Below, piece after piece: positions 1-12,401 of a DNA stretch of 12,933 bases. The notes below the pieces were generated by a model. It saw only the letters and a program-made list of their open reading frames with translations, did not search any database and was not told the origin of the DNA. Numbering within the stretch: the first letter of the stretch is position 1; every line of letters begins with the position of its first letter. This stretch comes from Actinomycetota bacterium. Lineage in GTDB: Bacteria > Actinomycetota > Acidimicrobiia > Actinomarinales > Actinomarinaceae. The stretch covers positions 1 to 12,933 of the forward strand of contig PBPX01000023.1 in assembly GCA_002724835.1 (NCBI GenBank), written 5' to 3'. The translations under genes and the position numbers were made by a program.

Positions 1-737
1 AGCTAGCTTTTATTGCTGGACCCGATAGTGCTGAATACAGAGAGCAGACACTTGAAACAGCAGAAGGTGTAGTAGCTAGTGGTGGAAACGGACTCAGAGG
101 AGGAGCATTTAAGCCTAGGACATCTCCGTATAGCTTTCAGGGCCTTGGAGAAGAAGGCTTAGTAATGTTGAGAGAAGCTGCAGACATTCATAATCTTCCT
201 CTATTTAGTGAAATAATGGATCTTCAGCATTTAGAAATGATGGAAAAATATGTTGATGTATTACAAATAGGTGCACGTAATATGCAGAATTTTAAATTAT
301 TGGAAGCAGTTGGTGAATCTCCTCTTCCTGTTCTTTTAAAGAGAGGTATGAGTGCAACTTTAGAAGAGCTACTACTGGCTTCAGAATATATTCTTGCCAG
401 GGGAAATGAAAATGTGATGTTATGTGAAAGAGGCATTAGAACTTATGAGAATGCAACTAGGAATACATTTGATATAAACGCTATCCCTTATTTGAAAATG
501 AATACACACCTTCCTGTAATTGCTGATCCTAGTCACGCAACAGGAGATCGCACACTTGTGGAGTCAGTTGCCTTAGCAGCCGTTGCAGCGGGGGCTGATG
601 GACTATTGATAGAAATTCATCCAAGACCAGATGAAGCTCTATGTGACGGGCCACAGGCTTTGACACCGGATGAGTTAAAAGTCTTAAGTGGAAAAGTAAG
701 TGAAATAGCAAAAGTAGTTGGGAGATCTTTAAACTAA
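1..737 (+). CDS. aroF: DAHP synthase, type I-beta (AroG/AroF-like), 5'-truncated
   Basis: 3-Deoxy-7-phosphoheptulonate synthase catalyses the first step of the shikimate pathway (PEP + erythrose-4-phosphate). The frame is open from base 3, so the N-terminus lies upstream; 244 residues are visible, matching the whole catalytic barrel of the Thermotoga/Bacillus-type enzyme. Family motifs seen in order are FIAGP, LRGGAFKPRTSPYSFQG, QIGARNMQNF, LLKRG, CERGIRT, ATRNTFD, IADPSH and IEIHPRPDEALCDG. Three of the four metal ligands known for this family are present at the expected spacing: His in DPSH, Glu 26 residues later in IEI, and Asp 11 further in CDG. The fourth, the Cys of the usual GPCSVE, is Asp here (GPDSAE). 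Any N-terminal regulatory domain (ferredoxin-like, or a fused chorismate mutase) is outside the window. The stop is 2 nt before tyrA, so the two are probably translated from one mRNA. Confidence 0.95.
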   Translation, partial: LAFIAGPDSAEYREQTLETAEGVVASGGNGLRGGAFKPRTSPYSFQGLGEEGLVMLREAADIHNLPLFSEIMDLQHLEMMEKYVDVLQIGARNMQNFKLLEAVGESPLPVLLKRGMSATLEELLLASEYILARGNENVMLCERGIRTYENATRNTFDINAIPYLKMNTHLPVIADPSHATGDRTLVESVALAAVAAGADGLLIEIHPRPDEALCDGPQALTPDELKVLSGKVSEIAKVVGRSLN

Positions 738-739
738 CC

Positions 740-1570
740 ATGAAAAATGTTCGAATAATTGGATTAGGTTTAATGGGAACAAACCTTGGAATAAACCTAA
801 CTAGTAAAGGTATTAAAGTTTATGGAGAAGATGTTAATGATTATGCCAATAATCGTGCCAACAAGCTTGGAATAGATATAAACAAAACAGATGAAGAGGT
901 AGATTTAACGATACTTGCAATGCCAGTAAACAAGATCATCTCTTATTTAAAAGAAAATAAAAAAATATCAAACACTAAAGCTTTATTGGATATTGGAGGA
1001 ACTAAACAAGAGATTTGTGACTTGATGGATCAATCAGAGATCCCTTCAATTGGTGGTCATCCTATGTGTGGTTTAGCTGATAATAATTCTTGGGAACCAA
1101 CGCCTGAAATTTATGAAAAAGCAACTTTTTTATTATGTGAAACAGAATCTACTTCTGAAGATTCAAAAACAATAATTAGTAATTTTTTAAAACTACTAAA
1201 TGCAGAAGAGGTGTGGATAGATAGAGAAAGGCATGATGAGATAATTTCAATAACAAGTCACATTCCTCATTTAATAAGCAGTGCTTTGGTAGGAATTGCT
1301 AAGGACGATTATCAAATTAATGAAATTATGGGCATGGCTGCAGGAGGGTTTGACGGCGCAACTAGACTTACTAGAACAAATCCCGAGATGATTATTGATA
1401 TGTATGATACAAACTCAAAAAACATTAATAAGTTTCTAAAAGTTTTTCTGAAGGAAATATCTGAAATAATGGACCTTCAAGAGAGAAAAGAGTTAATAGA
1501 TTATTTAAGTTCATCTGTTGAATGGAGAAGAGCTTTGTCAGAGAAGTTTGGAGAAAGGCCACTAAGTTGA
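740..1570 (+). CDS. tyrA: Prephenate dehydrogenase
   Basis: Oxidatively decarboxylates prephenate to 4-hydroxyphenylpyruvate in tyrosine synthesis (an arogenate substrate cannot be excluded). The protein has 276 residues: an N-terminal Rossmann domain with GLGLMG at residues 8-13 and an acidic Asp31 at the end of the second strand, which favours NAD+. Next come DIGGTK (84-89), HPMCG (107-111), and the catalytic-region SHIPH (173-177), followed by the helical domain with GGFDGATRLT (202-211). There is no ACT and no chorismate mutase domain; the length fits the core enzyme. The position usually occupied by Ser in HPMAGS is Leu112 here. The ATG follows the DAHP synthase stop by 2 nt without a strong Shine-Dalgarno, suggesting translational coupling. 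Its own stop overlaps the preferred TTG start of aroA. Confidence 0.93.
   Translation: MKNVRIIGLGLMGTNLGINLTSKGIKVYGEDVNDYANNRANKLGIDINKTDEEVDLTILAMPVNKIISYLKENKKISNTKALLDIGGTKQEICDLMDQSEIPSIGGHPMCGLADNNSWEPTPEIYEKATFLLCETESTSEDSKTIISNFLKLLNAEEVWIDRERHDEIISITSHIPHLISSALVGIAKDDYQINEIMGMAAGGFDGATRLTRTNPEMIIDMYDTNSKNINKFLKVFLKEISEIMDLQERKELIDYLSSSVEWRRALSEKFGERPLS
1550..1558 (+). promoter_or_regulatory. Ribosome binding site that supports the TTG start of aroA
   Basis: GGAGAAAGG lies 8 nt before the TTG at 1567. This purine run inside the end of tyrA supports TTG 1567 over the ATG at 1522, because translation from TTG yields an N-terminus that begins right at the conserved EPSP synthase first strand. 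The assignment is inference from spacing and homology. Confidence 0.6.
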
Positions 1571-2844
1571 GTTCATTAAAAACTATTTCTGGAGAAGTTA
1601 CTATCTTAGGGGATAAATCAATATCTCATAGGTGTATAATTCTAGGTTCTCTTGCAGAGGGTGAATCTTCTTTTGAGAATATTTTAATTTCAGGAGACAC
1701 AGCTGCAACTATCGAAATTTTTCGATCATTAGGTGTCAAAATTGATTTAATTGATGAAAATATAATCAAAATACATGGCGTAGGTTTAAATGGTTTAGAT
1801 GAACCAGAACATGATTTAGATGCTAAAAGCTCGGGAACTACTGCACGGTTATTAATTGGTTTGCTTTCAAGGCAAAACTTTTCTTCAAGAATGGTTGGGA
1901 GCAATCAGTTGATGAAAAGACCAATGGCTAGAGTCATAGACTTATTTACAGATAATGGAGCAAAAATAGATTCAGATAATGGGAAGTTACCAATTACATT
2001 TACTCCATCATCTTATACATTTAGTAATTTAGATACAAAAGTTCCAAGCGCACAAGTTAAGAGCGCTGCGGTTCTTTCATCGCTATACAATAATGAACCA
2101 ACAATAATTAATGAAGAAACCTTAACTAGAGATCATACGGAAAGAATGCTATTAGAAATGGGTATTGAGCTAGTAAGGCTTGGAAACACAATCACAATAC
2201 CCCCAGTTACAAAATTAAATCCTTTAAATATGAAAGTTCCTTCAGATATTTCATCTGCTGCATTTTTGATTTCTCTAGGAGTTCTAAAAGGAGAGAATCT
2301 GTTATTAAAAAATGTTTTAATTAACGAGAGAAGATTAGGTTTTGTAAAAGTTCTAAAAAGAATGAATGCAAGTATTGAGATACTAAATATTAAAGAAATA
2401 AGTAATGAATTAGTAGGAGATATAAAAGTATCCAAATCCGACCTTGTAGCCACAACAATTGAACCAAAAGAAATATCAGACATTATTGATGAGATACCAA
2501 TTTTAACTTTTATAGCAAGCCAAGCCGAAGGAAAAACAATACTCAAAGGTGCAAACGAGTTAAGAATTAAAGAATCAGATAGATTAGAAAATATGAAGAA
2601 TTTTATTCAAGGCTTAAATGGTGAAATCACTATGCACGAAGATGGCTTTGAAATTAATGGCGTCCAAGATTTAGATGAAGGAAGTGTATCAACAGAAGAT
2701 GATCATCGAGTTGCTATGACGGCTATAATTGCCAACATTGCTCTTGGAAAGAAAATATTACCTGACAACACTGATTGCATTAAAGATTCTTACCCAACTT
2801 TTTTTCTTGATATAGAGAGCATTGGAGGAGTGATTAATGAATAA
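1567..2844 (+). CDS. aroA: 3-phosphoshikimate 1-carboxyvinyltransferase (EPSP synthase)
   Basis: Transfers the enolpyruvyl group of PEP to shikimate-3-phosphate. With the TTG start the protein has 425 residues, the usual family length. The ATG at 1522 would add a 15-residue tail and overlap tyrA by 49 nt. Motifs: GDKSISHR (15-22; Lys and Ser/Arg of the PEP and S3P sites), KSSGTTAR (87-94), KRPMARVIDLF, PSAQVKSA (S3P-binding Ser-x-Gln region), TRDHTE, SDISSAAF, DEIPIL (catalytic Asp region), ELRIKESDR, DDHRVAM, and C-terminal KDSYPTFF. The normally near-invariant Gly-Asn of GNxGT is Lys-Ser here; the Gly-Thr that follows and the Arg are kept. TTG and the tyrA TGA share the tetranucleotide TTGA. 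The 3' end overlaps aroE by 8 nt. Confidence 0.93.
   Translation: MSSLKTISGEVTILGDKSISHRCIILGSLAEGESSFENILISGDTAATIEIFRSLGVKIDLIDENIIKIHGVGLNGLDEPEHDLDAKSSGTTARLLIGLLSRQNFSSRMVGSNQLMKRPMARVIDLFTDNGAKIDSDNGKLPITFTPSSYTFSNLDTKVPSAQVKSAAVLSSLYNNEPTIINEETLTRDHTERMLLEMGIELVRLGNTITIPPVTKLNPLNMKVPSDISSAAFLISLGVLKGENLLLKNVLINERRLGFVKVLKRMNASIEILNIKEISNELVGDIKVSKSDLVATTIEPKEISDIIDEIPILTFIASQAEGKTILKGANELRIKESDRLENMKNFIQGLNGEITMHEDGFEINGVQDLDEGSVSTEDDHRVAMTAIIANIALGKKILPDNTDCIKDSYPTFFLDIESIGGVINE
2824..2830 (+). promoter_or_regulatory. Strong internal Shine-Dalgarno for aroE
   Basis: GGAGGAG sits 6 nt before the aroE ATG at 2837 and inside the last codons of aroA. It is the strongest Shine-Dalgarno seen in the operon and gives aroE independent initiation besides coupling. 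Confidence 0.65.
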
Positions 2845-3625
2845 ATATGGAATCTTAGGTTGGCCATTGGAAAGAAGCTATTCGCCAATAATTCATACTT
2901 TCTTATTAAAACATGCCTCCATTGAAGGTAAGTATGAGTTAATAAGAATGAATGAAATAAATAATAAAAATATAGATCAAATTAATAAAAGTTATTCTGG
3001 ATATAACATAACAATTCCTTACAAAGAAAAGATATTGGAGGTTTGCGAAGAAGCCCACCTTGATGTCCATGTTAAAAAAATTGGTTCTGTAAATACTGTA
3101 AAAAATAAAGATGGAGTAACTTCTTTTTACAATACAGATTATTTAGGTTTCTTAAACTTCCTTGAAATAATTAATTTTAATCCAGAGGGAAGAAAAATTA
3201 TGATTTTAGGTAGTGGTGGAAGTTCAAAATCAATAAATTATGCTCTTAATTTAGTGAAGGGTGAAGCAACAATAATAAGTAGGACAAATAAGGAAGAAAC
3301 TATTTCATATCAAGATCTAAATGAGAGAGCAAATGAAGTTGAAGTAATAATTAATACAACCCCTATTGGAATGCCCCCTTATGAAAATGAGACTTTAGAT
3401 ATTAATGTTGAAAATTTCAATAACCTTGAACTAGTTATGAATATTGGTTATGGGCCAAATAATAATTTTCTTACTTTATTTAATGACAACATCCAAAAAT
3501 TTGACGGTTTGGGTATGTTAATTTGTCAGGCAATAGAATCATTTAATATTTGGACTTCATCAGAGCTAACAGTTACTAGTATTTATGATGAAGTTTTTAA
3601 AGAATTGGAAAAACAACATGATTAG
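2837..3625 (+). CDS. aroE: Shikimate dehydrogenase (NADP+)
   Basis: Reduces 3-dehydroshikimate to shikimate. The protein has 262 residues. The substrate domain shows GWPLERSYSP (8-17; Ser14 and Ser16 are the shikimate carboxylate contacts of the family), NITIPYKEK with catalytic Lys63, GSVNT (83-87), and NTD with catalytic Asp101. The cofactor domain shows the nucleotide loop LGSGGSS (124-130) and an SRT tripeptide (148-150) in place of the common NRT that binds the NADP 2'-phosphate. The C-terminal half carries NTTPIGM (173-179) and the closing helix motif GMLICQAIESFNIWT. It starts within aroA (8-nt overlap, good RBS) and ends within aroC (8-nt overlap). Confidence 0.93.
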   Translation: MNKYGILGWPLERSYSPIIHTFLLKHASIEGKYELIRMNEINNKNIDQINKSYSGYNITIPYKEKILEVCEEAHLDVHVKKIGSVNTVKNKDGVTSFYNTDYLGFLNFLEIINFNPEGRKIMILGSGGSSKSINYALNLVKGEATIISRTNKEETISYQDLNERANEVEVIINTTPIGMPPYENETLDINVENFNNLELVMNIGYGPNNNFLTLFNDNIQKFDGLGMLICQAIESFNIWTSSELTVTSIYDEVFKELEKQHD

Positions 3626-4796
3626 ATTTTTAACAGCTGGAGAGAGCCATGGCCCTGAATTAACAGGAATAATTGAGGGTGTTCCTGCAGGATTCACAAT
3701 TAGTAAAGAGTTTATAGATTCTTATTTAAAAAGAAGGCAGAAAGACACTGGTTCTGGTGGTCGAATGAATATTGAAAGCGATGAAGTATTTATATCATCT
3801 GGAGTAGTTAACAATATTTCAACAGGAGCTCCTATTGCTTTAAGAATTAAAAATAAAGATTGGGAAAATTGGAAAGATAAAGATATAGAACCATACGTAG
3901 TGCCTAGACCTGGGCATGCAGATTTAATTGGTACGGCAAAATATGATTTAAATGACATAAGGTTAGTTTTAGAGAGATCAAGTGCTAGAGAGACAGCTAT
4001 GAGGTCTGCAATAGGGGCAATAGCGATGCAGATACTAGAGTCAATGGGAATATCCATATATGGTTATGTTTCATCTATAGGAAAGGTTGATTATAGATAT
4101 TCAAATGATTTTTCATTAGATGAGATGAGAAAATTAACAGATGATTCACCGGTGTCTTGTCCAGATGCTGATAAATCTAACCAAATGGAAAAAGAAATTT
4201 CAGATGCAAGAAAAAAGAAGGACACACTTGGAGGGTCTATAACTACTATTGCTACGGGCGTCCCTCCAACATTAGGAAGTTATGTACATTGGGACAAAAA
4301 ACTAGATGCTAAATTAGCAAGAATCCTTATGTCTATACAAAGCGTCAAGGCTATAGAGGTTGGAGATGGTATTGAATCATCAAAAAATTATGGCACATCA
4401 GTTCAAGATCAGTATGTTTTAAACGAGAAAGAAATAAAAAAAGAATCAAATAATCTTGGAGGTTTTGAAGGAGGTATGACAAATGGTGAAAATATAGAAT
4501 TAACAGCTTATATGAAGCCAATAAGTACTACATTGTCTCCAATAAAAAGTGTGAATCTTGCTGAAAAAGAAGAAACAGAAACAGTTTATGAAAGATCAGA
4601 TACATGCGCAGTCCCAAGAGCAGTACCAATTTTTGAGAGTGCAATGGCCTTAGAAATATTAAATGCTGTTTTAAATAAGACTGGCGGAGACAATAAGAAA
4701 GAAATAATTAAAAATTTTGAAAATATCCCAAATTTAAATATTGATGAATTTGATTTAGATAATAAAGTTTGGAAATTTGGTTATGAATCGGAGTAA
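3618..4796 (+). CDS. aroC: Chorismate synthase
   Basis: Converts EPSP to chorismate using reduced FMN. I start it at the ATG at 3618, giving 392 residues that begin MIRFLTAGESHG like other family members. An upstream ATG at 3585 would add 11 residues encoded entirely inside aroE in another frame. Signatures: GESHG with His11, the RRQ...GGRMNIESDEV block (39-57), RPGHAD with His100, KYDLNDIRLVLERSSARETA, SIQSVKAIEVGDG, NLGGFEGGMTNGE, MKPISTT, and RSDTCAVPRAVP near the C-terminus. Both catalytic histidines of the family are present. It overlaps aroE by 8 nt and aroK by 14 nt. Confidence 0.95.
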   Translation: MIRFLTAGESHGPELTGIIEGVPAGFTISKEFIDSYLKRRQKDTGSGGRMNIESDEVFISSGVVNNISTGAPIALRIKNKDWENWKDKDIEPYVVPRPGHADLIGTAKYDLNDIRLVLERSSARETAMRSAIGAIAMQILESMGISIYGYVSSIGKVDYRYSNDFSLDEMRKLTDDSPVSCPDADKSNQMEKEISDARKKKDTLGGSITTIATGVPPTLGSYVHWDKKLDAKLARILMSIQSVKAIEVGDGIESSKNYGTSVQDQYVLNEKEIKKESNNLGGFEGGMTNGENIELTAYMKPISTTLSPIKSVNLAEKEETETVYERSDTCAVPRAVPIFESAMALEILNAVLNKTGGDNKKEIIKNFENIPNLNIDEFDLDNKVWKFGYESE

Positions 4797-5292
4797 TGTT
4801 TTTTTGGTTGGTTTTATGGGTTCCGGTAAAACAGCAGTTTACAAAGAGATTTCTCCTTTAGTTAAATCAGAAAATTTTGATTTAGATGAGGAAATTATTA
4901 AAAAATATGGAAGTATTGAAACAATATTTGAAAAAGAAGGAGAAGGTCATTTTAGAGCATTAGAACAAAAAAAATTTTCTTCTATTCCAAATAAAAACTG
5001 TTTAGTAGCTTTAGGCGGAGGTTCTGTAGAGAACGATATAATTTTTGAAAAGATTATAAACTCTTCCAATGCTTTTTACTTAATGGATAATATTGAAAAC
5101 TTATGGGACAGAATAAAAGATACAGACAGACCATTAGTTAAAAAAGGCAAGGACGATGTAATAAAACTATTTAATAAAAGAGTGTCATTATATGAAAAAG
5201 TATTAAACAAAATTGATATGTCAAAAACGACAATTAGCGAAGCATCTGAAATAGTTATTGAAAGCACGTGGTTAAAAGATGCAAGAATCTAG
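4783..5292 (+). CDS. aroK: Shikimate kinase
   Basis: Phosphorylates shikimate at O3 with ATP. From the ATG at 4783 the protein has 169 residues. A TTG two codons upstream (4777) is possible but gives an unusual MVM start. The P-loop GFMGSGKT is at 10-17, the shikimate-binding/Mg2+ region FDLDEE has Asp33 and Asp35, FRALE has Arg58, the Gly triad ALGGGS is at 76-81, and the lid carries RPLV (Arg116). An Arg-x-x-x-Tyr pair (RVSLY) follows, as in the family. It overlaps aroC by 14 nt and aroB by 14 nt. In some lineages aroK and aroB are fused; here they are separate frames. Confidence 0.92.
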   Translation: MNRSNVFLVGFMGSGKTAVYKEISPLVKSENFDLDEEIIKKYGSIETIFEKEGEGHFRALEQKKFSSIPNKNCLVALGGGSVENDIIFEKIINSSNAFYLMDNIENLWDRIKDTDRPLVKKGKDDVIKLFNKRVSLYEKVLNKIDMSKTTISEASEIVIESTWLKDARI

Positions 5293-6280
5293 AGTTACTT
5301 ATTTAGAAAGCGTAGATGGGCTCAACTCGTATTTGAGAAAAAACTTTAGTAAAAGTAGCTCAATAATCTTTGTTGACTCAAATGTAAGTTCAGAATATAT
5401 ATTTGATGAAAATTTTAACACTCATGAAATTTTGGTTAATGAAGAAACAAAAAATATTACAACAGTTGAGAAAATTTGGGAAATTATGCACTCGAATTCA
5501 GTAACAAGAAGCACAAATGTAATTTGTATTGGAGGAGGGGTCCTTTGTGATGTAGTGGGATTTGCGACTAGTACTTATAAAAGAGGTGCAAATTTAGTAT
5601 TAATTCCAACCACACTTCTCGCTATGGTTGATGCTTCACATGGTGGAAAAAATGGAGTTAATAATAATTATGGAAAGAATCAAATAGGTACATTTTATTT
5701 ACCTAGCGAGGTTTTAGTTTGTGTTGAATTTTTAAATTCCTTAGATAAAGAAGAAATTAATACTGGTTTAATCGAGGTTATAAAGGCTGGCTTTATTGGA
5801 AATAATAAAATTTTAGAGCTAGTTTATGGAGATGACTCAGTTTATTCCGACAAGAATTTACTTCAACTAGCCATTGATGTTAAAACAAAAATTACAAAGG
5901 AAGATTTAAAAGAATCCAATAAAAGAATGTATTTAAATTTTGGTCATACAATAGGACATTTAATTGAATCAGATTCAAACTATCAAATTTCACATGGTCA
6001 AGCTGTTGGCATTGGAATTTTGATTGCTTTAGAAATTTCAGAAAAAGAATACAATTTAAATCAATCATATAGAAAAAATTACATGACTTTTTTAAATAAC
6101 TCTGGACTTAAAAGTCATTATAAATTTAAAAAAACAAGAAGTGAACTTATCACCATATTAAGTAATGATAAAAAAGTAAATAATGAAAAGATTAATTTTG
6201 TTTTGTTAGAGGAAATAGAAAAACCAATTCTTAAAGAGATAGATATTGAGCAAGCAATGGAATTGATAATAAATGAGTAA
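5279..6280 (+). CDS. aroB: 3-dehydroquinate synthase
   Basis: Cyclises DAHP to 3-dehydroquinate using NAD+ and a divalent metal. The protein has 333 residues. The NAD loop is GGGVLCDVVGF (85-95), followed by YKRG (100-103) and PTTLLAMVDASHGGKNGV (110-127, where SVGGKTG is usual), then GKNQIGTFYLP. The three metal ligands of the family are in place: Glu165 in LIEVIKAG, His223 in LNFGHTIGH, and His239 in SHGQAVGIG. The start lies within the end of aroK (14-nt overlap) with no obvious Shine-Dalgarno. The end overlaps aroQ by 8 nt (ATGAGTAA). Confidence 0.94.
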   Translation: MQESRVTYLESVDGLNSYLRKNFSKSSSIIFVDSNVSSEYIFDENFNTHEILVNEETKNITTVEKIWEIMHSNSVTRSTNVICIGGGVLCDVVGFATSTYKRGANLVLIPTTLLAMVDASHGGKNGVNNNYGKNQIGTFYLPSEVLVCVEFLNSLDKEEINTGLIEVIKAGFIGNNKILELVYGDDSVYSDKNLLQLAIDVKTKITKEDLKESNKRMYLNFGHTIGHLIESDSNYQISHGQAVGIGILIALEISEKEYNLNQSYRKNYMTFLNNSGLKSHYKFKKTRSELITILSNDKKVNNEKINFVLLEEIEKPILKEIDIEQAMELIINE

Positions 6281-6707
6281 AGTAATAATAATTAATGGCC
6301 CAAATTTAAACTTTTTGGGAATAAGAGAAATTGAAAAATATGGAAGCCTATCATATGAAGATTTAAAAAATAAGATCAGTGAACATGCAGAAGGTAAAAA
6401 TAAGATCGAATTTTTTCAATCAAATTATGAAGGAGAGATTGTTACATACATACAGGAAATCAGAAAAGATACTGAGGTTAAGGGTGTTGTAATTAATCCT
6501 GGTGGCTTAACTCATTCAAGTGTTTCTTTAAGAGATGCTCTTTCAATACTAGAAGTGCCAATAATTGAGGTTCATATAACTGATATTGCTAAAAGAGAAT
6601 CATATAGAAGAATAAACTTAATTTCTGACTTATGTACAAAATCAATAGTCGGAAAAGGCATTGAAGGATACATTGAAGGAGTTGATTTCTTAAATGAAAA
6701 AAATTAA
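6273..6707 (+). CDS. aroQ: 3-dehydroquinate dehydratase, type II
   Basis: Dehydrates 3-dehydroquinate to 3-dehydroshikimate. The protein has 144 residues, the usual length of the small type II enzyme, so it is not the type I Schiff-base enzyme. Motifs: NGPNLNFLGIRE (8-19), catalytic Tyr23 in EKYG, QSNYEGE (49-55), NPGGLTHSS (75-83) with catalytic His81, and PIIEVHITDIAKRE (96-109) with His101. Two local departures from the commonest forms are seen: GLTH instead of AYTH or GAYTH, and HITD where HxSN is usual. It overlaps aroB by 8 nt and pheA by 14 nt. Confidence 0.93.
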   Translation: MSKVIIINGPNLNFLGIREIEKYGSLSYEDLKNKISEHAEGKNKIEFFQSNYEGEIVTYIQEIRKDTEVKGVVINPGGLTHSSVSLRDALSILEVPIIEVHITDIAKRESYRRINLISDLCTKSIVGKGIEGYIEGVDFLNEKN

Positions 6708-7512
6708 AAAAATATTTTATCAAGGCTCTGAAGGTTCTTATTCTGAGTCTGTTTTAGAAGCTTGTTTTCAAGAGACCGAATATGTAGCGTGTGAAACTTT
6801 TAAAGAAACATTAGGAAATGTTTCAAGTGATGATTTTGCACTTCTTCCAGTTGAGAATTCATTAGTTGGTACTGTTATAGAGGCGTATGAGAATCTTACT
6901 GAGAGCAATCTTGAAGTATATTTAGAAATTAGAAAGAAAATTAATCACGCCTTAATTGGTCTTCAAGGTGCAAAAATTGAAAATATTACAAAAGTAATTT
7001 CGCATCCACAAGCTTTGCAGCAATGCAGCAACTTTTTAGAAGGCCTAAAAATAGAGAGACAGCCTGTTTTTGACACTGCAGGGAGTGTTATGAGCTTATT
7101 AGATAATGATACTAAAGAAATTGCCGCAATTGCTGGAGAGCATTTTGAAAATGATAAAAGATTTACAATTTTACAAAACAACATATCAAATCATATTGAA
7201 AATTACACTAGATTTTTCTTAGTTGGCAAAGAAAACCCTGAAATGTCTGAAACGAAAGATAAGAGGTCAGCTGTCTTAATAGCTGATGACAAGCCAGGAT
7301 CATTACTACAGGGCTTAAAGATTTTTGAAGAATTAAAACTAAACCTTACAAAGCTTGAATCAAGACCAATACTTGGATCTCCATGGGAGTATAAATTTTA
7401 TATTGATTATCAAAATGAAAGTAATGAAATTGATACTCAACTTGAAGAAGAGTTAAGAAAAGTAACAAAAGAATTTAAAATTCTTGGTAGGTATGGTTCT
7501 ATAGATCTTTAA
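6694..7512 (+). CDS. pheA: Prephenate dehydratase with C-terminal ACT domain
   Basis: Converts prephenate to phenylpyruvate in phenylalanine synthesis. The protein has 272 residues. The catalytic domain shows GSEGSYSE (11-18), LPVENSLVGTV (51-61), SHPQALQQC (103-111), DTAGSV (127-132) and the TRF triad at 172-174. The ACT domain (about 190-270) shows PGSLLQGL and the ESRP motif (222-225) linked to phenylalanine feedback inhibition. There is no chorismate mutase domain at either end. AAGGAG (within 6675-6681) lies about 12 nt before the ATG. The gene ends the operon and its last 14 nt overlap the 3' end of the convergent gene, leaving no room for a private terminator. Confidence 0.94.
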   Translation: MKKIKKIFYQGSEGSYSESVLEACFQETEYVACETFKETLGNVSSDDFALLPVENSLVGTVIEAYENLTESNLEVYLEIRKKINHALIGLQGAKIENITKVISHPQALQQCSNFLEGLKIERQPVFDTAGSVMSLLDNDTKEIAAIAGEHFENDKRFTILQNNISNHIENYTRFFLVGKENPEMSETKDKRSAVLIADDKPGSLLQGLKIFEELKLNLTKLESRPILGSPWEYKFYIDYQNESNEIDTQLEEELRKVTKEFKILGRYGSIDL

Positions 7513-8575
7513 ATGACCAGTTTGAAGATTCTTTATCGTCTTCTATAACTATATTTAGCTTTTCTAAAAGATTTCTTATATTGTCAGACTCTTCAAATTT
7601 TTTATTGTCTCGAAGTTGGTTTCTTAAGGAAATTAAATCTTCAACCAAAGTATTAAAAATTTCTGAGTAATTTTTCTCATTTTTAATTTGTAATTTTAAT
7701 TTTGCAATTTGTTCATTTAAATCACTAATGTCATCTAATTTAGTTTCGCTTTTTTTATTGCTTAAAACATTATCTTTTGATAATGGAAGTAGTTTTTTTA
7801 GTTCGTCTAAATTATATACCTCACCTTTTTCAAACGCTTTTTCTTCTTTATGGTTGATTATTGTTACTTTCCCAATTCCTTCAACTTCAAAAGAGTTATC
7901 TTCTCCATCAATAAGAAGTGCAGTATGTTCATCTATACCTATAATATTTGTAAATTCATTTTCTAATAAAGTTTCCATTCTTCTTTTACCTACATAACTG
8001 TAACTTGTATCGTGAGTACCTCCTTCCTTATTATTAAAATGTGGAATAATTGTACAATTTAAATTAAAAATTTCTAAAATTTTTAATCCTTTTTCCCAGT
8101 AAGGTTCTAGTCCAACTTTATAAATTTCATAAACTGGCAAAGTCTTATTACCTAAAGTAGAAGCAGCAGCACTTGAAAAAACTGCACTCCCTCCTTTTGT
8201 TATATGATTTTTAAATAAATCTGGAATCCCTGATTCAATCCATGTTTTTGATGCATAACTTGGACTACCTGGTCCAGCAAAAATAAAATTTGATTCTGAA
8301 AGTGCTTCTAACATTTCAAAATAATTTATTGAATTTATACTTTTTTTATCTCTAAAGCTTGCGAGGTCAATTTCAATGTTGATGCTTTTCTGATAAAATT
8401 CTCTTAATTTCTTAACTAATTCATCAGCATTTTCCTGGAATCCAAAAGGTGTATCAATCAAATAAGCATTAACTTTTTCATTTAAGTTATTTATTAATCT
8501 TCTGTGAACCGATACTAAATTTGGACTTGTTTCACCTGATCCAAGTATTGCTATTGATCCTTTAACTTTTGACAT
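7499..8575 (-). CDS. Peptidase S51/cyanophycinase-like protein with CysS-like C-terminal segment
   Basis: The protein has 358 residues. Residues 1-265 look like the class I glutamine amidotransferase-like fold of the peptidase E/cyanophycinase family: GSGE (12-15), FAGPGSPSY (99-107, oxyanion-loop region), GGSAVFSSAAAS (128-139) with Ser135 at the nucleophile position of the usual GTSAGA, IIPHF with His179, KRRMETLL, and GIDEHTALLID (213-223). The elbow glycines of GTSAG are Ser and Ala here, so peptidase activity is uncertain. A charged, possibly coiled-coil linker (about 280-310) leads to residues 310-353, which align by eye with the extreme C-terminus of cysteinyl-tRNA synthetase: LRNQLRDNKKFEESDNIR, then LNIVIED and a conserved Trp353. 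The substrate is unknown. A TATAAT 6 nt before the ATG suggests a leaderless mRNA. Confidence 0.75.
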   Translation of the reverse strand: MSKVKGSIAILGSGETSPNLVSVHRRLINNLNEKVNAYLIDTPFGFQENADELVKKLREFYQKSINIEIDLASFRDKKSINSINYFEMLEALSESNFIFAGPGSPSYASKTWIESGIPDLFKNHITKGGSAVFSSAAASTLGNKTLPVYEIYKVGLEPYWEKGLKILEIFNLNCTIIPHFNNKEGGTHDTSYSYVGKRRMETLLENEFTNIIGIDEHTALLIDGEDNSFEVEGIGKVTIINHKEEKAFEKGEVYNLDELKKLLPLSKDNVLSNKKSETKLDDISDLNEQIAKLKLQIKNEKNYSEIFNTLVEDLISLRNQLRDNKKFEESDNIRNLLEKLNIVIEDDKESSNWSFKDL

Positions 8576-8626: not shown

Positions 8627-9625
8627 ATGTTTAAAATTATGTTAAAAATTTTAGAGGTATTCACAATTGAATATATACCCCGCCTTCCACTTGGATTAAG
8701 AAAGCACTTTTATAAACTAATTCTCCCTTTAAGGAAAGTAAAAGACAAAGTAGCTCTAAATGGCCCAAAAGGAGACTTTACATTTGAGACAAGACTTGAA
8801 TACGCAAAACTTTCTAGACAAGGGTTAAATAATAGTGGAACACATTTATTAAAATTTGATGAGTCAGTAAAAGTTGAAAAACTTGAGAATACACCGCTTG
8901 ATATATATAAATTTACACCAAATGATGCAGTTGATGATACATACGGCATTTATTTTCACGGAGGAGGTTATTATGCAGGAAGTATAACTTCTCATAAACA
9001 TTTTGTTTCTCAATTAACTGCTGGAACAAATGTTCCGTTTTATTTTTTTGAATACAGACTTAGTCCAGAAAATGTTTATCCTGCTGCTCATGAAGATGCA
9101 AAAGTTGCCGTTGAACATATAAAAAATTTAGAAAATGGAAAAAATTCAATATGGGCTGGTGAGTCAGCTGGCGGAGGTCTATCGACTGGATTGGCAGTAG
9201 ATGATTCATTTAATATCAAGCCAGATAAATTAGTACTCCTTTCTCCTTGGCTAGATCTTTCAGACAGAAATCGTGATAGAAGCTATTTAAAAAACAAAGA
9301 TATTTTGCTAGCTTTAGACGGAATGCATTTTGTAGGAGAGTATTATGCTGGAGAATTTGACCCAACAGATCCAATCTTATCTCCTGTGTTTGCAGATATA
9401 AATAATTTTCCAGAAACATTAATTCAAGTATGCTCAAATGAACTTTTATACAATGATGCCATTGAATTTACAAAAAAACTTCGTGAAAAAGGAACAAAAT
9501 ATGAGTTACAAGTTTGGGATGATTTATGGCATGCATGGCACTTCTTTCCTATAAAAGAATCTTCAGATGCTCTTAAAAAAATAGTTAACTTTATTACTTC
9601 TGACTCTTATTCTTCACCTAAGTGA
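8627..9625 (+). CDS. HSL-family alpha/beta hydrolase (esterase/lipase-like)
   Basis: A 332-residue serine hydrolase of the alpha/beta-hydrolase fold-3 (hormone-sensitive-lipase-like) type, probably an ester hydrolase of unknown substrate. The oxyanion-hole motif HGGGYYAG is at 111-118, the nucleophile elbow GESAGG at 178-183 with Ser180, and YRLSPENVYPAAHEDA in between is typical of the family. The third-residue acid appears to be Glu272 in CSNELL (Asp is commoner), and the His is in DLWHAWH near residue 302. The N-terminus (1-45) is hydrophobic/amphipathic and may act as a cap or membrane contact; it has no clear signal peptide. The start is chosen at ATG 8627 because a TATAAT sits 6 nt before it. 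The final 19 nt overlap the end of cbiO on the other strand. Confidence 0.85.
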   Translation: MFKIMLKILEVFTIEYIPRLPLGLRKHFYKLILPLRKVKDKVALNGPKGDFTFETRLEYAKLSRQGLNNSGTHLLKFDESVKVEKLENTPLDIYKFTPNDAVDDTYGIYFHGGGYYAGSITSHKHFVSQLTAGTNVPFYFFEYRLSPENVYPAAHEDAKVAVEHIKNLENGKNSIWAGESAGGGLSTGLAVDDSFNIKPDKLVLLSPWLDLSDRNRDRSYLKNKDILLALDGMHFVGEYYAGEFDPTDPILSPVFADINNFPETLIQVCSNELLYNDAIEFTKKLREKGTKYELQVWDDLWHAWHFFPIKESSDALKKIVNFITSDSYSSPK

Positions 9626-10353
9626 TGAAGGGCAAATCCATAAGGTAATTCAAGTCGATTTTCTTTCATTAACTGACTATTTTGTAAAATATCTTTTGTT
9701 AATGAATCTTCTTTAATAACTCCTTCATTTAAAACTAAACTTCTTTCACAGATTTCTAATGCCATAGGAAGATCATGAGTTACAAGTATTATTGATATGT
9801 CTAGCTTTATTAGAATATCAATTAGATCTCTTCTTGATGCAGGGTCTAAATTTGAGGCTGGTTCATCAAGAACTAATAGTTTAGGTTTTGATGCTAAAAC
9901 AGTTGCAATTGCAACTTTTCTTTTTTGTCCAAAACTTAAATGATGAGGAGCCCTATCTTGAAAATTTTCCATACCAACCATCTTCAAGGCCTCTACAGCA
10001 TTTGTTTCACTTTCCTCATTTGCATACCCAAAATTTTTTGGTCCAAACATAACATCTTCAATAACTGTTGGCATAAATAATTGGTCATCGGGATCTTGAA
10101 AAACAACACCTACAGTTTTTCTAATTTTTCCAATATTTTCAGATGAATATTCTAAACCATCAACTTCAATTTCACCTTTTAACTCTCCAAGTATTCCATT
10201 CAAATGGAGAATTAAAGTAGTTTTACCTGCACCATTTGGTCCCAATATTGCAATAGATTCACCTTTGTTAATAGAAAAATCTATACCTTTTAAGGCTTTA
10301 TGTCCATCTGGGTACGCATAAGACAGATTATTAATTTTTAAATATTTACTCAT
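9607..10353 (-). CDS. cbiO: ECF-type metal transporter ATPase, CbiO family
   Basis: The energy-coupling ATP-binding subunit of an energy-coupling-factor importer, cytoplasmic and docking on CbiQ. It has 248 residues with all ABC motifs: Walker A GPNGAGKTT (38-46), Q-loop VFQDPDDQLF (Gln86; the QDPDDQ form is typical of CbiO), signature LSFGQKRKVAIA (139-150), Walker B LLVLDEP with Glu164, D-loop SNLD, and switch His193 in VTHD. Its ATG overlaps the cbiQ stop as ATGA, so the two are coupled. One ATPase gene is present, so the complex would use a CbiO homodimer. Co2+ or Ni2+ is the usual family substrate; a Zn2+ role is possible from the nearby Zur-like operator. Confidence 0.9.
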   Translation of the reverse strand: MSKYLKINNLSYAYPDGHKALKGIDFSINKGESIAILGPNGAGKTTLILHLNGILGELKGEIEVDGLEYSSENIGKIRKTVGVVFQDPDDQLFMPTVIEDVMFGPKNFGYANEESETNAVEALKMVGMENFQDRAPHHLSFGQKRKVAIATVLASKPKLLVLDEPASNLDPASRRDLIDILIKLDISIILVTHDLPMALEICERSLVLNEGVIKEDSLTKDILQNSQLMKENRLELPYGFALHHLGEE

Positions 10354-11114
10354 AAATATTTATCCACAATTAAAACAATAATTGATATCAAAGTTAGAAA
10401 AATTAATAATACTGAGTTGTCATAATCTCGTTTTTTTAACTCAATAGACCCATTGAAACCTCTTGAAATCATTGATAGATATACTCTTTCACCTCTTTCA
10501 TATCCACGAATTAACATAGCGCCTGACGCATAAGCTATTGGGATAAGTCCTTTTATTCCTTTTTCTTGATATCCTCGAGACCTCATGGAAATTCGAACTC
10601 TTTTAAACTCATCAATGAAGACATCAATGTACCTTATGGCGAATGACATAATAGCAATTATTATTTGTGGAAGTTTCAACTTTTGTAACCCATAAATAAG
10701 CTCAATAGTTGTTGTTACAGCAGTTAAAATTATTCCCATAGTTACTCCGAGAGTTGCTTTAAAAAGTATTCCAAACATATCTTCTAAACCAGTTTGGTAT
10801 ATATCTATGCCAAATAATGTATAAACAATATCATTATTTTCACTACTCAAGAAGGGGAGAAATAAAGCGAAGATAATAAATGGAATATCAATTGTCAGTC
10901 TTTTAAGATAAATTTTTAAAGGTATTTTTGAAATAAAAAGAATGAGAAAAACAATTAATGAATGTGAAAGTATCTGAAACAGATTTTCAACATCTGAAAA
11001 GGCTATAGATATTACGATTAAAAATGTAGAAAGAATTTTATGTTCTGGTTTTATATTTTTTAAGACAGATTCTTTGTGTAATGATAGATGATGAGAGTGA
11101 GTTGTAGAGTACAT
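10350..11114 (-). CDS. cbiQ: ECF transporter transmembrane subunit, CbiQ family
   Basis: The T-component that couples ATP hydrolysis to the substrate-binding membrane subunit. The protein has 254 residues with a His-rich N-terminus (HSHHLSLH, 6-13) and several hydrophobic segments (about 28-42, 50-64, 78-90, 115-135, 150-162, 188-203, 234-251). Two short Arg-Gly coupling motifs are seen: SMRSRGY (176-182), and SMISRGF (214-220) preceded by YERGERVY. These are the ATPase-contacting helices of the family. No CbiM/NikM or CbiN gene lies in the window; directly upstream is the Fur-family gene. The 38-bp spacer holds a Fur-type inverted repeat and a -10 candidate, so metal-responsive repression is likely. 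Confidence 0.88.
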   Translation of the reverse strand: MYSTTHSHHLSLHKESVLKNIKPEHKILSTFLIVISIAFSDVENLFQILSHSLIVFLILFISKIPLKIYLKRLTIDIPFIIFALFLPFLSSENNDIVYTLFGIDIYQTGLEDMFGILFKATLGVTMGIILTAVTTTIELIYGLQKLKLPQIIIAIMSFAIRYIDVFIDEFKRVRISMRSRGYQEKGIKGLIPIAYASGAMLIRGYERGERVYLSMISRGFNGSIELKKRDYDNSVLLIFLTLISIIVLIVDKYL

Positions 11115-11152: not shown

Positions 11153-11563
11153 TTATTTACATTTTTTACATCTACCTGAATATACAAAGTGATTCTTTTC
11201 TATCTTGTATCCAGTGTCTTTAGTAATAAGTTCATTAATTTTATTTGTTGTTTTATTTGAGATATCTTCGATATTATTACAGTTATCACATGCTATATGA
11301 GTACTTGTTATTGCTTCTTTGAGATAATATATCCCAGAAGAGTGAGCTTGGTGAGAGTGCTCAATAATATTTAAATCTTCTAATAATTCAAATGTTCTAT
11401 ATATAGTCGCTAAATCAATCTCTTTTGAATATTTACGGGCCAATTTAAATAAGTTGTCTGCTGTAAAATGCTCATGACCTGATTCTTCGAGTATTTTACA
11501 TATAATTTCTCTAGATATAGTTACTCTGTATCCATTTTTTTTGAGCTGATTTATCAAATCCAT
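11153..11563 (-). CDS. Fur-family metalloregulator (Fur/Zur/Nur type)
   Basis: A 136-residue DNA-binding metal sensor. The N-terminal winged helix includes EHFTADNLF (31-39) and the recognition region DLATIYRTFELLEDLNIIE (50-68). The dimerisation domain holds HSHQAHSSG (69-77) and HIACDNC, and two CxxC pairs (Cys92/Cys95 and Cys132/Cys135) are the structural zinc site seen in many family members. Residues that separate Fur, Zur, Nur and PerR cannot be decided by eye. It is upstream of and co-oriented with cbiQO, and a 7-1-7 operator lies between them, so it is the obvious candidate regulator. Its -10 box overlaps that of the divergent selenoprotein gene. Confidence 0.92.
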   Translation of the reverse strand: MDLINQLKKNGYRVTISREIICKILEESGHEHFTADNLFKLARKYSKEIDLATIYRTFELLEDLNIIEHSHQAHSSGIYYLKEAITSTHIACDNCNNIEDISNKTTNKINELITKDTGYKIEKNHFVYSGRCKKCK

Positions 11564-11569
11564 AGGTAA

Positions 11570-11575
11570 AGTATA
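11570..11575 (-). promoter_or_regulatory. -10 box of the Fur-family gene, leaderless
   Basis: TATACT (5 of 6) on the minus strand, then 6 nt (TTACCT) and the ATG at 11563. It overlaps the plus-strand TATAAT at 11572-11577 by four bases, so the two promoters should exclude each other. Confidence 0.55.
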
Positions 11576-11577
11576 AT
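11572..11577 (+). promoter_or_regulatory. -10 box of the thioredoxin-like selenoprotein gene
   Basis: A perfect TATAAT on the plus strand. The start point would fall near 11584, leaving a short leader of about 15 nt that carries AAGGA before the TTG start at 11599. Confidence 0.55.
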
Positions 11578-11587
11578 TTGTTTAGTT

Positions 11588-11592
11588 AAGGA
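11588..11592 (+). promoter_or_regulatory. Ribosome binding site for the TTG start of the selenoprotein gene
   Basis: AAGGA lies 6 nt before the TTG at 11599. A stop (TAA, 11587) closes the frame just upstream, and the only candidate starts after it are ATA and this TTG. This decides the start. Confidence 0.6.
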
Positions 11593-11598
11593 AAAATA

Positions 11599-12072
11599 TT
11601 GAAAAGAATACTTTTAAAAATTGTTAATAAATATAGTTTGATTTACTCTCCAGCAATCTGGACTCTTGGTGTAGCTATAATTTCAATCGTATATAAACCT
11701 TTTTGGATCTTAAATTTCTTGACTGTGCTTGCAATATTGTTTTCTTTTATTTTATATTTATATACATCAAGAAGAGGACTTACTATTGATGGGCATAATT
11801 TCTCGAATTATAAATATACAATTCTAGAATATTATTCAGATTACTGACTTGGCTGTACAGCATCAAAACTCATAGTTGATGAGTTCAAGAAAAAAAATCC
11901 AGAAATACCAATAGTTTCTATTAATGCTTCAAAAAAAGAGTACAAAGAAATAATTGAAAAATATAGATTAAAATTTACACCCACCTATGTTTTAGTTGAT
12001 GGCAATGGTGAAAGAGTACATAAAAGAGTTGGTAGTTTTAGTATTAAAAAATTTACTTCTTTAATAAATTAA
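11599..12072 (+). CDS. Membrane-anchored thioredoxin-like selenoprotein (in-frame TGA = Sec83)
   Basis: Read through one TGA (11845-11847), the frame encodes 157 residues ending at TAA 12070-12072. Two hydrophobic segments (about 16-32 and 35-55) are followed by positive residues (TSRRG), which would leave both ends in the cytoplasm. A thioredoxin fold follows: strand YTILEYY (73-79), the redox motif U83-L-G-C86, helix TASKLIVDEFKKK, strand IPIVSINA, helix KEYKEIIEKY, then FTPTYVLVDGNGE with the cis-Pro (Pro128). Only one Cys (Cys86) exists in the protein, so a CxxC-type centre requires residue 83 to be Sec. TGA acts as a normal stop elsewhere in the window (for example tyrA), so Trp recoding is unlikely. 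A stem-loop follows the TGA. Selenoproteins with UxxC thioredoxin folds are known; the redox partner here is unknown. Alternatives are an ancient nonsense mutation or a sequencing error. Confidence 0.8.
11848..11889 (+). promoter_or_regulatory. Candidate bacterial SECIS element
   Basis: Directly 3' of the TGA, AACTCAT (11867-11873) pairs perfectly with ATGAGTT (11879-11885) around the loop AGTTG, 26 nt after the TGA. CTTG (11848-11851) can pair with CAAG (11886-11889) below it, leaving a 5' internal loop. The distance and a G in the apical loop agree with the bacterial SECIS pattern. An alternative fold pairs CATC (11861-11864) with GATG (11878-11881) plus AACT/AGTT. Which fold wins needs a thermodynamic calculation. 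Confidence 0.55.
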
Positions 12073-12401
12073 GAAACTCTATCTCCTAAAGAAGAGTTTT
12101 CATCGGGATTAAGCAATAATACATTCCCTTCTTTATCTATAGATCCAAGAATTAAACACTGGCTCATAATCGATCCTATTTGCTTGTCTCCCAAATTTAT
12201 TATTCCTATGCATTTTTTATTTACTAAGCTTTCTAAAGAATAATTAGTTATTTGAGCACTAGTTTTTTTAATTCCTATATCTTCACCAAAATCAATGTTT
12301 AGTAGGTAAGAAGGTTTATTTAGTTCTGGAAATTCTTCTACTGAGATTATTTTCCCAACTCGTATATCTAGCTCCATAAAATTTTCAACATTTTTATTCA
12401 T
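12069..12401 (-). CDS. csaA: CsaA-like tRNA-binding-domain protein
   Basis: A 110-residue single OB-fold domain of the tRNA_bind/EMAP type. The whole length matches the CsaA family: LDIRVGKII (11-19), a VEEFPELNKPSYLLNIDFGEDIGIKKTSAQIT block (21-52), GIINLGDKQIGSIMS (66-80), LILGS, and a VLLLNPD...GDRV end. CsaA is described as a small export-related chaperone able to bind tRNA; its exact role is unsettled. The similar C-terminal domain of MetRS would be part of a much larger protein, so a standalone CsaA is the better call. Its stop codon overlaps the TAA of the convergent selenoprotein gene (4 nt shared). It is divergent from the FMN reductase gene across 30 bp. Confidence 0.9.
   Translation of the reverse strand: MNKNVENFMELDIRVGKIISVEEFPELNKPSYLLNIDFGEDIGIKKTSAQITNYSLESLVNKKCIGIINLGDKQIGSIMSQCLILGSIDKEGNVLLLNPDENSSLGDRVS

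Follow-up and report, generated by a model that had tools for sequence, protein, structure and literature searches.

Thioredoxin-like selenoproteins with a UxxC motif have been known from marine bacteria since the Sargasso and GOS surveys (PMC1088965, PMC2398784). As described in the main text of the latter survey, Trx-like 1 and Trx-like 3 share with the protein considered here the UxxC motif, the thioredoxin-like character and a bacterial, marine origin (PMC2398784). Trx-like 3, which shows weak similarity to cd02950, comprised 212 selenoprotein sequences from 33 samples and was commoner in marine samples. It also had 183 Cys homologues (PMC2398784), whereas none close was found for the present family. 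None of the terms actinobacter-, OCS155 and transmembrane appears in that main text. Compared by description alone, Trx-like 3 may be the family reported here. The thiol:disulfide interchange selenoprotein WP_011366075.1, included in a 2026 review, likewise combines PF13098 with UxxC, and the main text of this review contains none of the terms actinobacter-, Actinomycetota and transmembrane (PMC13188914). The classical thioredoxin model TIGR01068 is the one NCBIfam model matched by all 27 aligned members of the present family (E ≤ 0.001). The protein studied here nevertheless scores 28.7 bits against the TIGR01068 cut-off of 96.8 and differs from classical thioredoxin by its membrane helices and its selenocysteine (Sec); no NCBIfam model reaches its cut-off for this protein. 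In the full-text literature, a corpus that leaves out most subscription papers, no paper was found that joins Actinomarina with selenocysteine or selenoprotein, or Actinomarinales with selenocysteine. In one of the papers that bring together Actinomarina and selenium, the passages concern selenate reduction in a sister order. The family terms are absent from the available text of PMC12013277, and the available parts of PMC5029168, PMC9312934 and PMC9402790 do not settle whether the family had been described before.

The locus lies in bases 1-12933 of contig C4, a stretch hereafter called the window (Table 1). We assign its thioredoxin-like frame, with a probability of roughly 0.93, to a 157-residue selenoprotein with a thioredoxin fold, encoded by a Candidatus Actinomarina-like bacterium. 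Translation with TGA read as Sec yields these 157 residues, with a FTPTY motif in the distal part. As a preliminary description had claimed, the TGA falls at the first position of a U-L-G-C motif, giving U83, and C86 of this motif is the sole Cys of the protein. The same description had the frame run on past the TGA, and it does so for 74 sense codons, up to a TAA (12070-12072) overlapping the stop of the convergent csaA-like gene (12069-12071). The probability that 73 codons stay free of stops at the base composition of the window is about 0.0025, which is weak evidence when taken alone. Gene calling with table 11 ends the frame at the TGA and returns the 82-residue product that had been foreseen. 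Gene finders halve or misread such a protein because the Sec codon looks like a stop.

Table 1. Features of the selenoprotein locus and its neighbours (positions in the window).
Feature	Position	Strand	Basis or remark
Thioredoxin-like selenoprotein frame	11599..12072	+	TTG start, TAA stop, single in-frame TGA
In-frame TGA, predicted U83, first UxxC residue	11845..11847	+	Next base C
AAGGA, Shine-Dalgarno-like	11588..11592	+	6 nt 5' of TTG start; sequence
Predicted membrane helix 1 (residues 13-31)	11635..11691	+	Hydropathy; model
Predicted membrane helix 2 (residues 36-57)	11704..11769	+	Hydropathy; model
Thioredoxin-fold domain (residues 70-155)	11806..12063	+	Thioredoxin_2 28.3 bits, cut-off 27; model
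Predicted SECIS-like hairpin of bacterial type (7 bp; AGUUG loop, 11874-11878)	11867..11885	+	
TATAAT, -10-like box	11572..11577	+	By eye
Fur-family regulator, divergent neighbour	11153..11563	-	PF01475, 87.5 bits
CbiQ-type transporter membrane protein	10350..11114	-	PF02361
ABC transporter ATPase, cbiO-like	9607..10353	-	Name inferred from place beside cbiQ
csaA-like tRNA-binding domain protein, convergent	12069..12401	-	PF01588; stop codons overlap

The family was followed through a set of 42 genomes, all of one genus. The selenoprotein is encoded in 33 of them, including all eight genomes that are at least 90% complete, and each of the 33 has exactly one internal stop, always TGA; from the nine others the gene is absent in any form. 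In the protein alignment (A1; 27 rows from 26 of the 33 gene-bearing genomes), the TGA-encoded position 83 occupies one column in all rows, between the invariant stretches S80-D81-Y82 and L84-G85-C86; T127, P128 and T129 are invariant as well. An in-frame UGA is therefore conserved at the redox position, with coding sequence beyond it. The codon comparison took in 32 loci (31 distinct sequences) from 31 of the 33 genomes and was anchored at the TGA, so that its TGA column exists by construction and A1 supplies the independent positional evidence. In each of the 32 loci, C is the base after the UGA. When the A1 profile was run against 395 genomes sampled from the class, only the 33 gene-bearing genomes of this genus matched at E ≤ 1e-8, and the 353 others gave no match at this threshold. 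Relatives on nine named contigs show 50-95% identity; by their coordinates, these contigs coincide with nine of the genome matches. Since the window comes from a draft genome in 68 contigs that is 80% complete, a sequencing or assembly error, or else the recent change of a Cys codon into a stop, might be suspected. The preliminary description had itself envisaged TGC, TGT or TGG at this place, but the same TGA stands in all 33 gene-bearing genomes, MAG-titled and other records alike. The TGA is therefore no read error, and the probability of this explanation is vanishingly small.

The region beyond the TGA evolves like the region before it. In ten pairs of sequences, dN/dS is 0.05-0.14 before the TGA and 0.05-0.17 after it, the second value being higher in four pairs, equal in three and lower in three. 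Codons 3' of the TGA are under purifying selection. These figures bear on the idea that the TGA is a true stop, the product being an 82-residue membrane hairpin and the remainder a relic or the outcome of rare read-through. The end of the table-11 call at the TGA agrees with such a stop, as does a database entry of 87 aa (P0083) that ends exactly at SDY, but dN/dS as low beyond the TGA as before it, the lack of a second stop in 33 genomes and an amino-acid identity to the window protein that is higher after the TGA than before it in six of seven sequences make a true stop very unlikely. In bacterial Sec decoding, termination competes with Sec insertion at UGA. Two products could accordingly arise, the full-length protein at ample selenium and, at scarcity, a truncated hairpin with a role of its own. 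The part 5' of the TGA is, however, the less conserved one in the six comparisons of seven just mentioned, and we consider a dual product improbable.

Database copies of the protein bring in another reading of the codon. Searches with the window protein returned 21 proteins, and those with A1 at least 90 (8000 candidates scored). The SDY-x-LG motif is present in 77 of the 91 proteins listed. At the Sec position 76 of them show Trp, and the 77th is the Cys reading of the window protein made in this analysis. In the 14 others, P0046 and P0081 vary beside the site and also have W, P0083 ends at SDY, and the rest are remote or without this part. Were TGA to mean Trp (code 4), as these 76 entries would have it, residue 83 would be Trp and the protein would not be a redox enzyme. 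TGA, however, terminates three of the 15 window genes with a listed stop, and Trp is therefore not the true reading. Besides, the UCA-anticodon tRNA that was found in this genome is tRNA-Sec, the Sec apparatus is complete (see below), Trp would supplant the attacking Cys of a thioredoxin site, and the TGA of SelD sits in a GSGUACK motif. Code 4 hence deserves hardly any credence, and the Trp of the databases is most simply explained as TGA read by code 4 gene calling. Code 4, read error, pseudogene and true stop were all rejected or held unlikely on TGA conservation, TGA stops, alignment and dN/dS. As a separate observation, apparent code-4 calls in public catalogues, for an organism that uses TGA as a stop, may hide other selenoproteins.

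Reading the TGA as Sec calls for the corresponding machinery, and selA, selB, selC (tRNA-Sec) and selD, which the preliminary description had suggested looking for, were all found in the source genome (1.14 Mb). The selA match scores 365 bits (cut-off 267.9), and selB follows directly. A search of the genome with the selB profile gave five matches, none above the cut-off of 242.25. The best one (205.1 bits) covers profile positions 1-331 only, and the gene adjacent to selA, whose product has 561 aa, scores 198.4 bits over positions 2-567. That the latter score is below both the cut-off and the 205.1-bit match speaks against the selenoprotein. The selA-adjacent gene was nonetheless taken as SelB because its product holds a winged-helix domain above its cut-off (SelB-wing_3) and resembles the solved SelB 4zu9 over residues 3-548. 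The tRNA-Sec scores 77.7 bits (cut-off 47) and is called SeC, anticodon tca, by ARAGORN; a second match above this cut-off (49.4 bits) is a tRNA-Ser. SelD (371 bits; contig C10, L007 1399-2424, minus strand) has a single in-frame TGA of its own, in GSGUACK. Judged by its sequence, SelD of the same organism is thus a selenoprotein and provides a Sec site independent of the first. Another contig holds a further selD match, a partial one (98.6 bits, positions 218-309). A search of the genome with AhpC-TSA for more Sec proteins gave two matches, neither with an internal stop.

Across the genus, selA is above its cut-off in 34 of the 42 genomes. It accompanies the selenoprotein gene in 27 genomes; the selenoprotein stands alone in six (63-77% complete), selA stands alone in seven, and two have neither. 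The presence of selA in seven of the nine genomes without the selenoprotein gene in any form (G002, G005, G006, G015, G025, G029 and G039) counts against the selenoprotein reading. Since G005 is 87% complete in seven contigs, a real loss of the gene is possible. In the class sample, selA occurs in 256 of 395 genomes and 119 of 184 genera (E ≤ 1e-60), being above its cut-off in 255 genomes, so that the Sec trait is not special to this genus.

A bacterial SECIS has been described as a stem-loop directly 3' of the UGA with a small apical loop that contains a G (PMC1088965, in the part consulted). In the window, such a stem-loop (AACUCAU-AGUUG-AUGAGUU) is found soon after the UGA, G being the second base of its 5-nt loop, although covariation itself is weak. 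The 7-bp hairpin starts 19 nt past the UGA in all 31 distinct sequences, with the loop AGUUG in 17 and AGUUA in 14. The strongest synonymous conservation in the gene coincides with this stretch: among 150 windows of six codons, codons 89-94 rank first, with 0.95 observed where codon usage predicts 0.49, and all 31 sequences have ATA for Ile92 and GTT for Val93. The hairpin forms in 30 of 30 rows of alignment A4, which omits two of the 32 loci and contains 25 distinct sequences; 175 of 175 cells pair, as against 14-56% for slid versions, and unguided consensus folding with RNAalifold gave the same hairpin. One pair varies between UA, UG and CG, with CG confined to two sister sequences; shuffles equalled the count of two-sided pairs in 163 of 500 cases and the cell count in 15 of 500. 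Folded by itself, the hairpin does better than shuffled sequences (z -2.45), the stretch having been chosen after the fact. What weighs against a selenoprotein here is that covariation is thin, that shuffled sequences fold as well as the 57 nt around the TGA (z -0.74) and that an Rfam search of 11500-12200 gave no match at E ≤ 1. The TGA stretch of SelD, folded for comparison, showed no convincing hairpin (z -1.11).

The protein is above the curated cut-off of Thioredoxin_2 (PF13098), and both PF00085 and PF13098 are matched by all 27 members of A1 (E ≤ 0.01). The three solved thioredoxins among the alignments listed place their first active-site Cys opposite U83, at weak E values (0.0015-0.0028). 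AlphaFold2, run on A1 with Cys at position 83, gave a best model with a mean pLDDT of 89.8 and a pTM of 0.82 (five models, 74.7-89.8). Helices 2-11, 13-31 and 36-57 precede a domain made of strand 73-79, helix 84-99, strand 105-109, helix 116-121, strands 129-134 and 139-144 and helix 149-156. The two N-terminal helices followed by a thioredoxin domain, as first proposed, are thus modelled with high confidence. Residue 83, modelled as Cys, stands just before helix 84-99, and the model has the strand-helix order of the PF13098 fold: the motif opens the first helix, and a Pro, the invariant P128, precedes a later strand. Hydropathy, checked in five rows, agrees on both membrane segments; the first 16 residues of these rows hold four or five Lys/Arg and no acidic residue, and SRRG follows helix 2 in the window protein. 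According to the positive-inside rule, positive charges mark the cytoplasmic side, and both ends should therefore be cytoplasmic. Judged by the positive charges that flank the helix pair, ahead of helix 1 and behind helix 2, the thioredoxin domain probably lies on the cytoplasmic side.

No close Cys orthologue was found in the family genomes, in the 395 class genomes or among the matches listed (8000 candidates scored). A remote Cys match, P0091 (E 8.8e-4 in the A1 search), led to 20 proteins (P0091-P0110), 19 of which were aligned (A3). This Cys family has a basic N-terminus, an SDNCxxC-type motif with both Cys invariant, and TPT. Comparison of the A1 and A3 profiles with hhalign, which covered the thioredoxin part only (66-140), gave a probability of 97.7 and an E value of 1.8e-12, and set U83 on the first Cys. 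Where Cys or TGA had been expected at position 83 of homologues, the orthologues have TGA and the remote homologues Cys. The remoteness of these Cys relatives, with a best solved-structure E value of 0.0015 and no close Sec/Cys pair, is a point against the selenoprotein. The two families share the motifs LEFYSDxCxxC and TPT, and the hydrophobic segments of the Cys family (13-29 and 36-52) compare with 15-31 and 36-52 in the window protein; in the four members checked, segment 13-29 was present in all and the second (about 36-52) was above threshold in three. The Cys family differs by Cys in place of Sec, by a mostly greater length (171-204 aa in the 19 aligned) and by a C-terminal LDRxRVLYWLDQQ. 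As it also joins two hydrophobic segments to a thioredoxin domain, the architecture is not unprecedented, and the earlier impression that the combination of helix pair and thioredoxin was unfamiliar is weakened.

The Fur-family gene, on the opposite strand, starts 35 bases upstream of the selenoprotein frame. The adjacency to Fur that had been pointed out recurs in the 31 genomes examined of the 33. The gene order, with cbiO-like, cbiQ and fur on one side and csaA-like and FMN reductase on the other, is kept in 40 loci, that is, 31 of the 33 gene-bearing genomes and nine named records repeating nine of them; in one of the 40 the sequence ends before cbiO. Between the divergent starts, TATAAT or a TATATTATA version was seen by eye in the 32 sequences compared; a promoter scan did not report the TATAAT box as a full promoter. 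Synteny and the TATAAT-like box suggest that the selenoprotein gene may be regulated in common with Fur. A putative link with Fur or the transporter is based on synteny. Elsewhere in the window, no substrate-binding component was seen beside the CbiQ-type protein and the ABC ATPase (9607-11114, minus strand). Positions 3-7512 hold a dense run of genes, apparently a shikimate and aromatic amino-acid cluster, as named from reading the translations. The product of 7499-8575 (minus strand) has a Peptidase_S51 domain (26 bits, cut-off 23.9, residues 10-226) and an extra C-terminal stretch, which presumably resembles the end of cysteinyl-tRNA synthetases.

The selenoprotein would most likely act as a cytoplasm-facing, membrane-tethered selenol-thiol reductase; we put its placement on the cytoplasmic side of the membrane together with a reductase cycle at slightly better than even odds. 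A helical hairpin in the membrane would be followed by the thioredoxin-fold domain with the active site U83-L-G-C86. The UGA at codon 83 would be decoded as Sec by SelB and tRNA-Sec, aided by the SECIS hairpin. The target of the U83 selenolate could then be a disulfide, a sulfenic acid or a peroxide belonging to a substrate located in or at the membrane, possibly membrane proteins or oxidants near it, and C86 would resolve the intermediate as a U83-C86 selenenylsulfide. The thioredoxin system might re-reduce this bond; the genome encodes a thioredoxin (PF00085, 86.6 bits, 105-aa frame) and a thioredoxin reductase (408.7 bits, cut-off 343.45).

It may be further envisaged, as a tentative and rather doubtful proposal, that the protein is an obligate Se-dependent membrane thioredoxin retained throughout a genus of small-genome marine bacteria, that the relatives searched hold no close Cys counterpart, that its gene keeps one place between the fur/CbiQ-type transporter genes and csaA, and that the protein cooperates with the regulator or the transporter when metals or oxidants are dealt with at the membrane. 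On the selenoprotein reading, an oceanic lineage whose genome measures about 1 Mb retains the complete Sec apparatus and uses Sec on a membrane redox protein. Annotation either truncates this protein to 82 aa or writes Trp at the Sec position. Since the motif-bearing database clusters, at least 78 in number, stand for at least 1979 sequences, it would be a common selenoprotein that is misannotated.
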